This document shows positions 22,115 through 32,721 of a DNA stretch of 64,000 nucleotides, piece after piece. A program made the position numbers and the translations under genes. The stretch's first letter is position 1; each line of letters begins with the position of its first letter. The notes beneath the pieces were generated by a model, which searched no databases, had not been told where the DNA came from, and was given only the letters and a program-made list of their open reading frames with translations. This DNA comes from Alphaproteobacteria bacterium (GTDB lineage Bacteria; Pseudomonadota; Alphaproteobacteria; UBA6615), in NCBI GenBank assembly GCA_039980135.1, contig JBDXCV010000009.1:505854-569853 (forward strand). Reading direction: 5' to 3'.

Positions 22115-23779
22115 CTACATATTGGGATAGTTCGGCCCACCGCCACCCTCGGGTGCAACCCAGACGATATTCTGTGTCGGATCCTTGATGTCGCAGGTTT
22201 TGCAGTGCACGCAGTTCTGGGCGTTGATCTGCAGGCGGGGGTTGGACCCTTCGTCATCGGTCAGGATTTCATAGACCGACGCGGGGCAGAAGCGCTGCTC
22301 GGGCGCGTCATAGAGTTCCAGATTGACCGTGATCGGCACATCCGGGTCCTTCAACGTGAGATGCGCGGGCTGGTTCTCCTCATGGTTTGTGTTCGATATG
22401 AACACCGACGACAGCTTGTCGAAGCTGACCTCGCCATCGGGCTTGGGATAGTCGATGGGGGTGTGCTTGTCCTTCGTCTCCAGTGTTTCATGGTCTGCAT
22501 GACCATGCTTCATCGTCCAGGGCGCGCGCCCGCGCAGCACGACCTGATCGAACCCGGACAACAACGTCCCCATGTACAGGCCGAACCTGAAGGCCGGGCG
22601 AAAGTTCCGCGCCCGGGTCAGTTCCTTGTAGGCCCAGGATGCCTTGAAGGCCGATGTGAAGCCCTCAAGCAGCGGCGGGGGGGCATCGTCGGAAGTGAGC
22701 GCCGCGAAGGCCGCATCCGCCGCGACCATCCCTGATTTCATCGCCGTGTGGGTGCCCTTGATTTTGGGCACGTTCAAGGTGCCGGCCTCACAGCCAATCA
22801 AGGCCCCGCCGGGGAACACCATCTCGGGCAGGGATTGCACCCCGCCCTCGTTCAGCGCCCGCGCGCCATAGGAGATGCGTTTGCCGCCCTCAAAGACGGG
22901 CCGCACCGACGGGTGGGTCTTGAAACGCTGGAACTCGTCAAACGGTGAGAGATAGGGGTTCTTGTAGTCGAGCCCGATGACGTAGCCGACCGCCACCTGA
23001 TTGTCCTCCAGGTGATACAGGAACGAGCCGCCATAGGTCTTCGTGTCCAGCGGCCAGCCCGCCGTGTGCATCACCAGGCCGGGCTTGTGTTGTTCGGGGT
23101 CGACCTCCCACAGCTCCTTGATCCCGATCCCGTAGGTCTGAGCCTCGACATTCGCGCGCAGATCGAACCGGTCCATCAGCTGGCGGCCCAGTTGTCCCCG
23201 GCAGCCTTCGGCAAAGAAGGTGTAGCGGGCGTGAAGTTCGATGCCTTGCGTGTAATTGGCGGTCGGCTCGCCGTCGACGCCGATGCCCATATCGCCGGTT
23301 GCCACGCCGCGCACCGCGCCGTCCTCATCGAACAGGACTTCCGAGGCAGCAAAACCGGGATAGATCTCGACCCCGAGCGCCTCGGCCTGCTCCCCCAGCC
23401 AACGACACAGATTTCCGAGCGAGATGATGTGATTGCCGTGGTTCTTGAGTGCCGGCGGCAACAGAGCCGTCGGGATTGACGTCGCGCCGGTCTCACGCAG
23501 GAAAAGGAACTTCTCGTCGCTGACGGGCGTCTTGATGGGCGCGTCGCGGTCGCGCCAGTCAGGGATCAATTCATCGAGCGCGCGGGTTTCCAAAACGGCG
23601 CCCGACAGAATATGCGCGCCCACTTCCGAGCCCTTCTCCAGCACGCAGACACCGATCTCCGCATCCGCTTCAGCCGCGCGTTGCTTCAGCCGTATGGCCG
23701 CTGACAAACCCGACGGCCCCGCCCCCACGATCACCACATCATAGGCCATCGATTCACGTTCGGTGGGCTGCTCGCTCAT
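22115..23779 (-). CDS. electron-transfer flavoprotein-ubiquinone oxidoreductase
   Basis: 554 residues. FAD-binding G-A-G-P-S-G is at 19-24, preceded by V-V-I-V. The C-terminal ferredoxin-like segment [13 protein letters not shown] supplies three cysteines of the [4Fe-4S] cluster, with the fourth upstream at R-F-C-P-A. The enzyme passes electrons from reduced ETF, from fatty-acid and amino-acid dehydrogenases, to ubiquinone at the inner-membrane surface. The ATG at 23779 has GGAG nine bases upstream. It is divergent from the UDG gene. No etfAB genes are in view. Confidence 0.97.
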
Positions 23780-23927
23780 GTTAAGAATCTCCGCGACTCG
23801 ATATGCTGTGCCTCCAAGGAACCATGACCCACCGCGAATCACAACCGGGCGATTGCAACGCTCTCACCCTCCGAACGGTCGAGATTTCCGGCGGTCGAAG
23901 CGCGCGCCTACCGCGCGACATATCAAC

Positions 23928-24800
23928 ATGACCGTCGCAGCCGACACCCGCGTTGATCTGGCGGCAGCACTGCGCTGGCAGTTGGAGGCCGGCGCGGACG
24001 AGGCCATCGGCGACGTGCCGATAGACCGTTTCGCCGCCACGCCACCGAAGCCCGTCCCCGCGCCGGTGAGCGAGAATAAAAGCGCGGTGGCGGAAGCGCC
24101 TGCCCCCGCGATGGCCGACGCGCCGGCCCCGCCCGCGCCACCCAGGCTGGAACCCGCCGATGCCGTCAACGAGACCGCCCGCGGCCTCGCCGCCGGCTGC
24201 GATGACCTGGCGGCCCTGAAGACGGCGCTCGCGGCATTCGACGGCTGCGCGCTGAAATCAACCGCGACCAATCTTGTATTCGGCGCCGGCATGCAGAAAG
24301 CAGATGTCATGCTGGTCGGCGAGGCGCCCGGACGCGATGAAGACCGGGAAGGCGCGCCCTTTGTCGGCGCCAGCGGTCAACTGCTCGACGCAATGCTCGG
24401 TTTCCTCGATCTGGGGCGCGACACGAACGTCTACATCACCAATATCCTGCCATGGCGGCCGCCGGGAAACCGGCAACCCACGGGTGCGGAAATCGCCGCA
24501 TGCCTGCCCTTCCTCGAACGTCACATAGCGCTGGTCGCGCCCCGGCTACTGGTGTTTCTCGGCGGCACCGCGGCCAAGACGCTTCTGAATCGCACGGAGG
24601 GCATCACCCGGCTGCGCGGCCAATGGTACGACTACGCATCACCGGCGACGGAAGCCGGGGGCCTCGGTCCCATTCCTGCCATGGCGACGCTCCACCCCGC
24701 CTACCTGCTTCGCCAACCAGGCCAAAAACGCGCAGCATGGCTCGACCTGATCGCCGTGCGGGAAAAACTGGACGCGATCACAGCGGATCACGAACATTAA
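23928..24800 (+). CDS. uracil-DNA glycosylase, family 4-like
   Basis: 290 residues. About 85 N-terminal residues are a low-complexity Ala/Pro linker, then the UDG fold: motif G-E-A-P-G-R-D-E-D at 131-139, [10 protein letters not shown] next, and a C-terminal L-H-P-A-Y-L-L motif. It excises uracil from DNA. Of the four [4Fe-4S] cysteines of family 4 only two are at their positions (C107, C192); the first is Phe (F104) and the third is Trp (W176). This pattern may be a family trait of alphaproteobacterial members. The ATG at 23928 is used because the upstream extension overlaps the divergent promoter. Confidence 0.88.
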
Positions 24801-27216: not shown

Positions 27217-28266
27217 ATGGCAGACCAACTCGACCCCAACGCCGTTGCCGAACGATTGCGGCAGTCCGGGCATGCCCCCGGGGTAAGCACTGGCGATCTG
27301 TCGGTCCTGTCCACAAAGGGCGTCTCACATGATCACTGGCGGGTGACCGGCACGGGACAGGTGCTGCGCATCCCGCGCATGAACCAATGGGGCCTGCGCG
27401 CGGAAGACGCGCTCGCCTATCAGGCCGCCGCGTTCGATCGCGCCGCCGCCAGCGGCCACACACCGCATTGCATTGCCGTGATCGCGCCCGACACACCGCC
27501 TGACGCCGCGCTGCCGCGCGGCGCTTTGCTGGTCGACGAAATCGCCGGGCGGGTGCCCCACCTGCCACACGATCTGCCCGCCATCGCGGAGGCGTTGGCG
27601 GCGATCCACAGCCTGCCCGTTCCCCCCGACGGCGCACGCGAACCGCTCGAGATACACCGCAATCCCGTCTCGTCGACCCTGCAGAAGATCGAGGAACAGG
27701 CGGCGTTCCTTGGCGCGGCAGATCTCCCGGCCGAGGCCGAGGCGGGCATTCGCCAGGAACTCGAATGGGTCCGGGACTTCGCCGGCCGGGGCGAGCCGGA
27801 CTTCGCTCCCTGCCTGGTCTGTACCGACGCGCATCCGGGCAATTTCCTGATCGATGATGGTGGCAAGGCCTGGTTTGTCGATCTGGAAAAAGCGCTGTAC
27901 GGCGCCGTCCCGATCGACCTTGCGCATGTCACCCTGATGACCTCGACGGGCTGGGACCCGGACATCCACGGCGATCTCTCGACCGGCGACGTCGCGGCGT
28001 TCTACACGCATTATCTCGACCTGGTCGGCCCCGAACGCGCCGCCGAACTCCGGCCCTGGCTCCTGTCCCTGCGACGAATGACATGGCTGCGCACCATTAC
28101 CTGGTTCGTGCGCTGGAAGGCCGAATGGTCCGACACGGGCCACGCGGCCATGCGCGACGCGCGGATGGCCGCGCATATCAAGGCCCATGTCGAGCGCTGT
28201 TTCGATCCGGAAATCGTCGCGGCAACACGCCAGGACTGGCTTGCGACAGACACACTAACCGACTGA
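27217..28266 (+). CDS. phosphotransferase (APH/ChoK-like kinase fold)
   Basis: 349 residues. The kinase-like motifs are D-A-H-P-G-N-F-L-I-D (catalytic Asp and metal-binding Asn, about residue 208) and W-F-V-D-L-E-K-A (DFG-equivalent aspartate, about 222). The N-terminal lobe is divergent. It belongs to the aminoglycoside-phosphotransferase superfamily, whose members phosphorylate small molecules. No evidence favours antibiotic resistance; a housekeeping sugar, choline or tRNA-related substrate is as likely. It ends 44 bp before the SOS-like box. Confidence 0.85.
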   Translation: MADQLDPNAVAERLRQSGHAPGVSTGDLSVLSTKGVSHDHWRVTGTGQVLRIPRMNQWGLRAEDALAYQAAAFDRAAASGHTPHCIAVIAPDTPPDAALPRGALLVDEIAGRVPHLPHDLPAIAEALAAIHSLPVPPDGAREPLEIHRNPVSSTLQKIEEQAAFLGAADLPAEAEAGIRQELEWVRDFAGRGEPDFAPCLVCTDAHPGNFLIDDGGKAWFVDLEKALYGAVPIDLAHVTLMTSTGWDPDIHGDLSTGDVAAFYTHYLDLVGPERAAELRPWLLSLRRMTWLRTITWFVRWKAEWSDTGHAAMRDARMAAHIKAHVERCFDPEIVAATRQDWLATDTLTD

Positions 28267-28309
28267 TAATTATAATGTTTCAAGGATTATTAAGTGCAGC
28301 CTGCTGATT

Positions 28310-28324
28310 GTTCTTGTTTTGTTC
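28310..28324 (+). promoter_or_regulatory. LexA-type SOS box GTTC-N7-GTTC
   Basis: GTTC at 28310-28313 and GTTC at 28321-28324 are separated by exactly seven bases. This is the consensus direct-repeat operator of alphaproteobacterial LexA (established knowledge). It lies 24 bp before the radical SAM start codon in an AT-rich gap, where a bound repressor would overlap the promoter. Confidence 0.7.
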
Positions 28325-28347
28325 TTTTTGCGGCTTATCATTACCCC

Positions 28348-29538
28348 ATGAACAAGATCATCGATCGACAACTCACCCCCGATGCGGGGCAGCAGGGCGG
28401 AATCCATAACGCGTCGCCGGACCGAATTCCCGATCGTCACCACCCCGGACGCGGCGCCATTTCAAATCGCGCCGGCCGCTTCGAGCGACTGCGGGGCGAT
28501 GCGACCGACGACGGCTGGCGCACCGGATGCGACGATTACGACGATCCTCCGCGGCTCGAAACAAGTGTCACATTCGACCGGACGAAAACGATCATCGCGC
28601 GGAATGATTCGCCCGACCTGCCGTTCGATCGCTCGATCAATGCCTATCGCGGCTGCGAACATGGCTGTGTCTATTGCTTCGCGCGGCCGACCCATGCGTG
28701 GCTCGGTCTGTCGCCAGGCTTGGATTTCGAGACGCGTTTGTTTGCCAAGCCCAACGCCGCGGAACTGCTGACCCAAGAGCTTTCGAAACCCGGCTACAAG
28801 CCACGCACGATCGCCATGGGCACCAACACCGATCCCTATCAGCCCGTCGAACGACGGCTGAAAATCACCCGTTCGGTGCTCGAAGTCCTCGCCGCCCATG
28901 ATCACCCGGTCTCCATCGTAACCAAGAGCGCGCTGGTCACGCGCGACCTCGACATCCTCGGCCCGATGGCGGCCAAGGGCATCGCCACCGTCGGCGTTTC
29001 GGTCACCACGCTGGATTCCGAGCTGGCCCAGAACATGGAGCCGCGCGCCGCGCGCCCCGAGCGCCGGCTGGAGACGATCCGGATGCTCGCGGCCGCGGGC
29101 CTTCCGGTCACCGTCATGGCCGCGCCGATGATCCCGGCGCTGAACGATCACGAACTCGAGGCCATCCTCATTCGCGCCCGCCAGGCCGGCGCCACCCATG
29201 CCAGCTACATTCTCCTGCGCCTGCCGCTCGAACTGAAGGATCTGTTCGAGGAATGGCTGGCCACGCATTATCCCGACCGTAAGCGTCGCGTGCTGGGCCG
29301 CCTGCGCGAAATGCGCGGCGGCGCGCTCTACAAGAGCGGCTTCGGGGAGCGCATGCGCGGGACCGGCGAGGTGGCGAATCTGCTGCGCGAACGATTCAAG
29401 ATCGCGGTGCGTCAGCAGGGCTACTCGACCGAGCCGACCCTGCTCGACGCCGGGCACTTCCGAAGCGAAATGCCGGACTCGTCCCGCAGCAGCAAATGCA
29501 GCGGCCAGTTGAATCTGTTCGCGGAGAACGCGGACTGA
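28348..29538 (+). CDS. radical SAM protein, PA0069/SplB-related family
   Basis: 396 residues. The [4Fe-4S]-SAM motif is C103-x3-C107-x2-C110 in G-C-E-H-G-C-V-Y-C-F-A-R-P-T-H, followed by a TIM-barrel with T-I-A-M-G-T-N-T-D-P-Y-Q. This places it in the PA0069/Rv2578c group, distantly related to spore photoproduct lyase. Its chemistry is unknown; DNA-lesion repair is suggested by family and by the LexA-like box upstream. The first ~70 residues are poorly conserved and basic. Start chosen at ATG 28348. Confidence 0.93.
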   Translation: MNKIIDRQLTPDAGQQGGIHNASPDRIPDRHHPGRGAISNRAGRFERLRGDATDDGWRTGCDDYDDPPRLETSVTFDRTKTIIARNDSPDLPFDRSINAYRGCEHGCVYCFARPTHAWLGLSPGLDFETRLFAKPNAAELLTQELSKPGYKPRTIAMGTNTDPYQPVERRLKITRSVLEVLAAHDHPVSIVTKSALVTRDLDILGPMAAKGIATVGVSVTTLDSELAQNMEPRAARPERRLETIRMLAAAGLPVTVMAAPMIPALNDHELEAILIRARQAGATHASYILLRLPLELKDLFEEWLATHYPDRKRRVLGRLREMRGGALYKSGFGERMRGTGEVANLLRERFKIAVRQQGYSTEPTLLDAGHFRSEMPDSSRSSKCSGQLNLFAENAD

Positions 29539-30908: not shown

Positions 30909-31532
30909 ATGCTGGATGCCGGCACCCACGAACCGATCGCCGGGGTCGATGAGGCAGGCCGCGGCCCCTGGGCCGGGCCGGTCGTGGTCGCCGCGGCAAT
31001 CCTGAACCCCGAGAGCAGCGCGGCCCTGCAACGTGCCGGGGTCAATGATTCAAAGGCGCTGAGCAAGGCGGCCCGCGAACGCTGCTTTGCCGCCATCCGT
31101 GAAGAGGAAGAGCGGGGAACCCTGTGGCTGTCGATCGCGCGCGCGGAAGTCCCCGAGATCGACGCGCATAATATTCTGCGCGCCACGTTGCGGGCGATGA
31201 CCCGGGCCGTGACCGCGCTACCGGTCACCCCGGTGCGCGCCCTGATCGACGGCAACCAGATGCCCGAACTCCCCTGCCCCGGCGAGACGGTGGTGCGGGG
31301 CGATTCCCGGGTCCTGGCGATCGCGGCGGCATCAATCGCGGCGAAGGTCACACGCGACCGGTTGATGGCGGCCCTGGCGCGCGACCATCCCGGCTATGGC
31401 TGGGAGCGCAATGCCGGCTATGGCACAGCAGAGCATCGCGGCGCACTCGAATCCCTCGGCGTCACGATCCATCACCGGCGCAGCTTCGCACCCATACGCG
31501 AATTGCTCGAACGCACCCCAACATCTCGTTAA
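30909..31532 (+). CDS. rnhB: ribonuclease HII
   Basis: 207 residues. Catalytic D14 and E15 lie in A-G-V-D-E-A-G-R-G, followed by W-A-G-P-V-V-V-A-A. The third acidic residue is in L-I-D-G-N-Q-M-P and A-I-A-A-A-S-I-A-A-K-V-T-R-D completes the signature. It removes single ribonucleotides and RNA primers from DNA. Its TAA is at 31530-31532 and forms part of a TTAACC motif. It sits beside ccrM, as in many alphaproteobacteria. Confidence 0.97.
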   Translation: MLDAGTHEPIAGVDEAGRGPWAGPVVVAAAILNPESSAALQRAGVNDSKALSKAARERCFAAIREEEERGTLWLSIARAEVPEIDAHNILRATLRAMTRAVTALPVTPVRALIDGNQMPELPCPGETVVRGDSRVLAIAAASIAAKVTRDRLMAALARDHPGYGWERNAGYGTAEHRGALESLGVTIHHRRSFAPIRELLERTPTSR

Positions 31533-31538
31533 CCAGCT

Positions 31539-32721
<1,183 letters not shown>

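Follow-up and report, generated by a model that had tools for sequence, protein, structure and literature searches.

A radical SAM gene behind a predicted LexA operator in Alphaproteobacteria encodes a protein with a candidate clamp-binding tail

What might a radical S-adenosylmethionine (SAM) protein from a family without assigned function do behind an SOS-type box? The question is raised by a locus in an Alphaproteobacteria bacterium of the UBA6615 lineage (assembly GCA_039980135.1, contig JBDXCV010000009.1, forward-strand positions 505,854 to 569,853). This stretch of 64,000 nucleotides is referred to as the window, and the gene in question encodes a member of the PA0069 family. A sequence-only reading of the window had described an SOS-type box of the alphaproteobacterial LexA operator type 24 bp ahead of the gene, had related the product to spore photoproduct lyase (SPL) and had proposed a damage-inducible, lesion-processing role. 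The analysis points to a LexA-controlled, clamp-tethered radical enzyme that would process DNA lesions at replication sites, a reading that is considered probable as a whole.

The box, GTTCTTGTTTTGTTC, is an exact GTTCN7GTTC on the same strand as the gene. The earlier distance of 24 bp holds when counted from base 28324 to the start codon ATG at 28348, with 23 bases lying between box and ATG. The automatic listing of open reading frames (ORFs) opens the frame at GTG 28294, which places the box within the ORF; ATG 28348 is preferred as the start because the box-to-ATG spacing is conserved in the family. Taken alone, the bare pattern has no significance in the window, where three matches are found against 2.08 expected and 33 of 100 shuffled sequences reach three. 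The spacer of the box equals the family consensus. When this spacer is included and up to two mismatches are allowed (GTTCTTGWTTTGTTC), the box is the sole match in the 64 kb (0.05 expected; one match in 5 of 100 shuffles), a test that is not independent, as the spacer was derived from relatives of the radical SAM gene.

The PA0069 family is common. Within the class, 155 of 289 genomes have a match, which exceeds the model cut-off in 143 of them; for the phylum, 171 of 398 genomes score above cut-off. The alphaproteobacterial set consists of 142 fetched members and the window protein, five partial matches (G178, G229, G224, G045, G065) and the matches outside the listing being left out; two members with less than 300 bp of upstream sequence (L050, L110) were omitted from the box count, leaving 141. 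An exact box is located within 450 bp upstream of 123 of these 141 members, while the reversed pattern occurs in 3 and a 450-bp stretch inside the gene contains the box in 2. Among 80 loci from named records, whose taxa overlap the first set, 69 of 78 have the exact box. One record titled Mycobacterium sp. KBS0706 contains a member 60% identical to that of the window (L181, 2501-3583), preceded by the alphaproteobacterial box; its label is probably wrong.

Outside the Alphaproteobacteria, the operator type changes. The alphaproteobacterial box is found upstream of none of the 40 members fetched from other classes of the phylum. CTGTN8ACAG, the gammaproteobacterial-type LexA box, is present in exact form in 25 of the 40 and with a single mismatch in one more, compared to 2 of 40 for a scrambled control with up to one mismatch. 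That the same gene stands behind two unrelated operators argues strongly for genuine LexA control. For the window gene itself, SOS control by LexA is predicted and rated very probable, and the assignment of the box to the alphaproteobacterial operator type is supported by its conservation in relatives and by the switch in other classes. Among seven more distant plasmid relatives, the consensus CGAACN4GTTCG was found with one mismatch in three of the four from Actinomycetota (L332, L333 and L343).

The whole genome of the window organism contains 131 matches to GTTCN7GTTC, compared to 28 for a reversed control pattern. A spacer profile was built from the boxes of 120 relatives, excluding that of the window, and 104 of the 131 sites were scored; each of the other 27 is without the final three spacer bases of the consensus and, by a hand count, could score about 7.9 at most. 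The window box ranks top of the 104 scored sites (13.1), followed by recA (12.3), an imuA-like gene (9.3) and comM/yifB (8.6), with the fifth site at 3.4. This ranking is partly circular because the profile stems from relatives of the window gene; its independent part is that recA, the imuA-like gene and comM rank next. Family scans confirm the RecA and YifB-family assignments as well as the LexA and SRAP domains. The imuA-like gene, preceded by GTTCTTATTTTGTTC (L358, 1501-1515, contig C13), matches ImuA with 59.6 bits, under the cut-off of 150.

The single lexA gene, also on contig C13, encodes a product with LexA_DNA_bind and Peptidase_S24 domains and has GAACATCACTAGAAC just upstream, with a profile score of -1.2. 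The same operator type is thus found at lexA, recA, the imuA-like gene and comM/yifB in this genome. A further site, GTTCCCGTCTTGTTC (L327, 1501-1515, contig C9; score 0.8), separates an SRAP peptidase gene from a divergent ribonucleotide reductase gene. The profile ranks this site low, yet LexA may well act there, perhaps on both genes. Genuine sites can score low, given the values of -1.2 at lexA and 0.8 beside the SRAP gene. Inspection by eye of the ORFs near sites scoring below 3.5 (L324-L331, L009, L022) and at L359 and L360 revealed no SOS gene besides the L327 case, and the ORF at L324 has no Pfam match.

The arrangement of box and start codon is consistent with promoter repression. Of 120 members with a forward box, 116 have an in-frame ATG between the box and the conserved core; its median distance from the box is 24 bases (quartiles 21.25-25). 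In the 84 of these 116 members that have 18-30 bases from box to ATG, the most frequent start of TANNNT is position -12 (38 members), followed by -13 (11 members), with at most 4 at any position elsewhere, and a Shine-Dalgarno-like sequence is found in just 8. This pattern suggests a leaderless transcript, with the box overlying the -35 region. A consensus promoter scan reports further sites upstream, at 28241-28276, that are at odds with the conserved spacing.

The window protein is matched by the hypothetical-equivalog model NF033668 with 497.3 bits (cut-off 360) over residues 34-375, a range that excludes the clamp-type motif described below. It shows no family-level difference from the NF033668 family, whose model carries no function. 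The cysteines of the CxxxCxxC motif are the only ones invariant in 183 members; the next cysteine column reaches 80 of 183. The AlphaFold2 model has a mean predicted local distance difference test (pLDDT) score of 80; residues 1-43 and the tail are modelled with low confidence. In a fold search, SPL is the closest solved structure (4fhf: Z 19.9, 260 residues, root-mean-square deviation 3.1; six entries at Z 19.6-19.9). The next non-SPL folds, NifB and lipoyl synthase, follow at Z 15.3, and Foldseek agrees on SPL as closest, which supports the proposed relation to this enzyme. A sequence search of the PDB with the window protein gave no useful match.

The fold and the CxxxCxxC cluster are common to the window protein and SPL (SplB; PDB 4fhc, 4fhf). 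The window protein differs from SPL in having no extra invariant cysteine and in carrying a clamp-type tail and an SOS box, both of which are missing in 8 of 8 SPL-family proteins. These controls come from five genomes of the same class; five score above the TIGR03886 cut-off and three are weaker, with the weak partial matches L350-L354 left out. The SPL models TIGR04070 and TIGR03886 do not match the window protein at E 0.001, and in a profile alignment to SPL a gap opens at the C141 equivalent. As there is neither an extra invariant cysteine nor an SPL model match, the window protein is not called a spore photoproduct lyase, although it may work in a similar way. A light-dependent photolyase (Phr) was considered and rejected: the Pfam scan yields Radical_SAM only and no photolyase or FAD domain. 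The Rv2578c family (NF038135) is related; the window protein reaches 232 bits with its model, under the cut-off of 430. In 50,697 phage records, relatives turn up in 9; all are distant, and coverage stays below 80% in each.

Behind the conserved core, the protein ends in a linker of variable length and the peptide QLNLF, followed by five residues to the C-terminus. The pLDDT drops from 92 for residues 361-370 to 67, 51 and 53 across residues 371-396. Two alignments were used, one with 39 of the 142 fetched members and one with 65 of the 80 named loci, each with the window protein added. The column of Q387 is occupied by glutamine in 180 of 183 members, and one of the clamp-type motifs is found in the last 14 residues of 177 of 183; the tail motif also occurs in 77 of the 80 named loci, whose taxa overlap the 183-member set. 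Within the last 12 residues, Qxx[LMF][FLI] is present in 126 of 143 alphaproteobacterial members and in 40 of 40 others, compared to 6.6 and 2.3 in shuffled ends and 0-1 at six other places in the proteins. The strict form Q[LM]xL[FL] is found in 97 of 143 alphaproteobacterial members, compared to 0.9 in shuffles. Among 359 other long ORFs, called mechanically and not all genes, the loose form occurs twice and the strict form not at all.

UmuC of E. coli contains the same five letters (357-QLNLF-361) within its clamp-binding motif, Pol II contains QLGLF and Pol IV QLVLGL, with QL[S/D]LF as the consensus (PMC3716654). Both motif classes, the QLxLF and the QLxLGL type, are found within the PA0069 family. 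The window protein resembles the translesion polymerases UmuC, Pol IV and Pol II in motif class and in its predicted SOS control, but it is a radical SAM enzyme and not a polymerase. A clamp-type tail is also present in 4 of 4 actinobacterial relatives, which end in QxxL[LF] (QLRLL, QLTLL, QESLF and QEPLF); three of these are confirmed as Rv2578c-family members by scan. Nine non-alphaproteobacterial plasmid relatives include four with a tail, namely L332, L333, L334 (Gemmatirosa, QLSLGI) and L335 (Roseburia, QQSLF). The genome of the window organism has one dnaN match. Conservation and motif letters together make binding of the beta sliding clamp through the tail highly likely.

Eleven non-alphaproteobacterial members end in PQGxLF. 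Ten of them lack CTGTN8ACAG (L286, L289, L291, L294, L297, L303, L305, L306, L307 and L313, with only 254 bp upstream available for L289), and L287 has it. The ten seem to form a sub-group whose motif is weaker and whose regulation may differ. A plasmid of Runella slithyformis (L340, 1384-3498) encodes a related radical SAM protein, the gene of which shares four bases with the beginning of a UvrD-helicase gene; this hints at a mobile repair pair. On a haloarchaeal plasmid (L337, 955-3490), two divergent radical SAM genes are encoded beside a TcmP gene, and the one that was read has no clamp-type tail.

The SOS part of this picture is already known in kind. SOS control of a gene termed 'splB' has been predicted in alpha- and beta-Proteobacteria (PMC3323433). 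The regulatory idea, an spl-like gene behind a LexA site, is the same and the family is probably the same as well, but the window gene is argued here to belong to a clamp-tethered family distinct from SPL. For Gram-positive bacteria, a radical SAM protein has been listed as part of the core SOS regulon, and one is also listed for Balneolaeota (PMC7739468). In Streptomyces venezuelae, the radical SAM gene vnz_31145 shows LexA enrichment in chromatin immunoprecipitation and a 20-fold rise with mitomycin C (PMC9380542); the boxes that this paper marks as validated do not include that of vnz_31145. Two Caulobacter SOS genes share the LexA box GTTCttgttatGTTC (PMC12700426), which differs from the window box by one spacer base. 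In the main text of two Caulobacter SOS papers (PMC13384398, PMC4211646), radical SAM and SPL terms are absent. Archaeal SplB-like genes lie beside nreB, whose product has a possible PCNA motif, and crosslink repair has been speculated (PMC4929162). In both cases a possible clamp motif is associated with an SplB-like enzyme; in the archaea it would be carried by the neighbouring protein, here by the radical enzyme itself.

The clamp-type tail, in contrast to the SOS part, was searched for and not found in print: among the CC-licensed PMC papers that the searches listed, no title or abstract opening reported a clamp-binding radical SAM enzyme. The leaderless geometry was not met there either, though no search was aimed at it. 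PA0069 is presumably part of the LexA regulon in P. aeruginosa, and Rv2578c of that in mycobacteria; no supporting paper was found for either in the CC-licensed set.

We infer a mechanism in which LexA would bind the box, overlapping the -35 element of a leaderless promoter, and keep the gene off. DNA damage leads to RecA-driven self-cleavage of LexA, and repression of the gene would be lifted. The product, an SPL-like radical SAM enzyme, would be tethered to the beta sliding clamp by its flexible tail ending in QLNLF, much like translesion polymerases, and would alter damaged DNA by radical chemistry at replication forks or gaps. The enzyme probably acts on DNA at the clamp. That its substrate is a DNA lesion is likely, and this lesion is probably not the spore photoproduct itself. 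The damage-inducible, lesion-processing role proposed earlier gains support from box conservation, the operator switch, the SPL fold and the published relatives. In a wider form of this proposal, for and against which the chances appear evenly balanced, the PA0069 and Rv2578c families would make up a widespread clamp-tethered radical SAM class, under LexA control in at least two phyla via unrelated operators. At forks and gaps, such enzymes would process DNA lesions that block replication, crosslinks for instance, or reverse them directly, as a radical counterpart of clamp-bound translesion polymerases. Direct-reversal DNA repair enzymes are few, and we know of no radical SAM enzyme of this kind described as travelling with the replication clamp. 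For a family whose model carries no function, the clamp-type motif offers a simple way to test its site of action and a route to purification of the complex.

Several observations weigh against this proposal. An exact upstream box is missing in 18 of the 141 alphaproteobacterial members, and allowing one mismatch weakens the contrast to the reversed pattern (139 vs 57 of 141). CTGTN8ACAG with up to one mismatch is absent in 14 of the 40 other members, one of which has just 254 bp upstream. The tail motif is lacking in 6 of 183 members and in five of the nine distant plasmid relatives (L336-L340), only the 97 alphaproteobacterial members mentioned above fit its strict form, and many non-alphaproteobacterial members have G or Q at position 2 (QGSLF, QQDLF), which is weaker than QL[S/D]LF. 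Short peptides can resemble clamp motifs by chance. The fold alone is no proof of a DNA substrate, as radical SAM enzymes act on proteins, RNA and small molecules too.

A box without any regulatory role is the least probable of the alternatives. The bare pattern is common, with its 131 genomic and three window matches, but a chance origin is extremely improbable in view of the upstream conservation with its within-gene control, the fixed spacing and the class-wise operator switch, and was rejected. The 2012 label 'splB' implies that the enzyme is a genuine spore photoproduct lyase or that it repairs thymine dimers without light. This reading would agree with the closest solved fold and with the gene name in PMC3323433. 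Against it stand the absence of a fourth invariant cysteine in the 183 members, the missing model matches, and the existence in the same class of separate SPL-family proteins that have neither tail nor box. The identity with SPL was rejected on these grounds and is rated improbable. SPL relies on an extra cysteine (C140/C141), and C140 mutants are named among the structure entries.

Two further alternatives accept the SOS control and place the chemistry elsewhere than on DNA. The SOS-induced enzyme could modify DnaN or another replisome protein and thereby slow or reroute replication; it is the clamp to which the tail points, and proteins are substrates of many radical SAM enzymes. The motif caps a variable linker in the style of a polymerase tether, however, and the closest fold acts on DNA, so that the clamp is hardly to be expected as the substrate. 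The tail could also be a chance hydrophobic end, with the enzyme working away from the fork, either on RNA or in the synthesis of a small molecule. The great breadth of radical SAM chemistry and the lower-Z matches to other radical SAM folds leave this explanation some room, yet it is unlikely: behind a linker that varies in length, Q is retained in 180 of 183 members; the tails represent two known motif classes, the QLxLF and the QLxLGL type; and a like tail recurs in the second family, Rv2578c. The preferred reading thus remains that of a LexA-controlled radical enzyme tethered to the clamp. The features of the locus are compiled in Table 1.

Table 1 Features of the radical SAM locus (window coordinates)
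Feature	Position	Strand	Basis
Predicted LexA (SOS) operator GTTCTTGTTTTGTTC	28310..28324	+	exact GTTCN7GTTC; conserved upstream of relatives
Putative -10 element TATCAT	28336..28341	+	12 to 7 bases before ATG
PA0069-family radical SAM protein, 396 amino acids, ATG to stop	28348..29538	+	NCBIfam NF033668; Pfam Radical_SAM
[4Fe-4S]/SAM motif codons, C103-x3-C107-x2-C110	28654..28677	+	invariant in 183/183 members
Variable C-terminal stretch and linker, residues 358-386	29419..29505	+	alignment; AlphaFold2 pLDDT
Putative beta-clamp-binding motif QLNLF, residues 387-391	29506..29520	+	Q387 conservation; UmuC letters
rnhB (RNase HII), downstream of the radical SAM gene	30909-31532
CcrM-type adenine methyltransferase, downstream	31615-32721

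Among the downstream genes, rnhB has counterparts at other loci of the family: in 30 of the 80 named loci, an RNase HII motif is encoded in the 2.5 kb that follow the family gene. Elsewhere in the window, a Family-4 uracil-DNA glycosylase is encoded at 23763-24800, in which the domain match begins at residue 160, after a long proline/alanine-rich N-terminal part.
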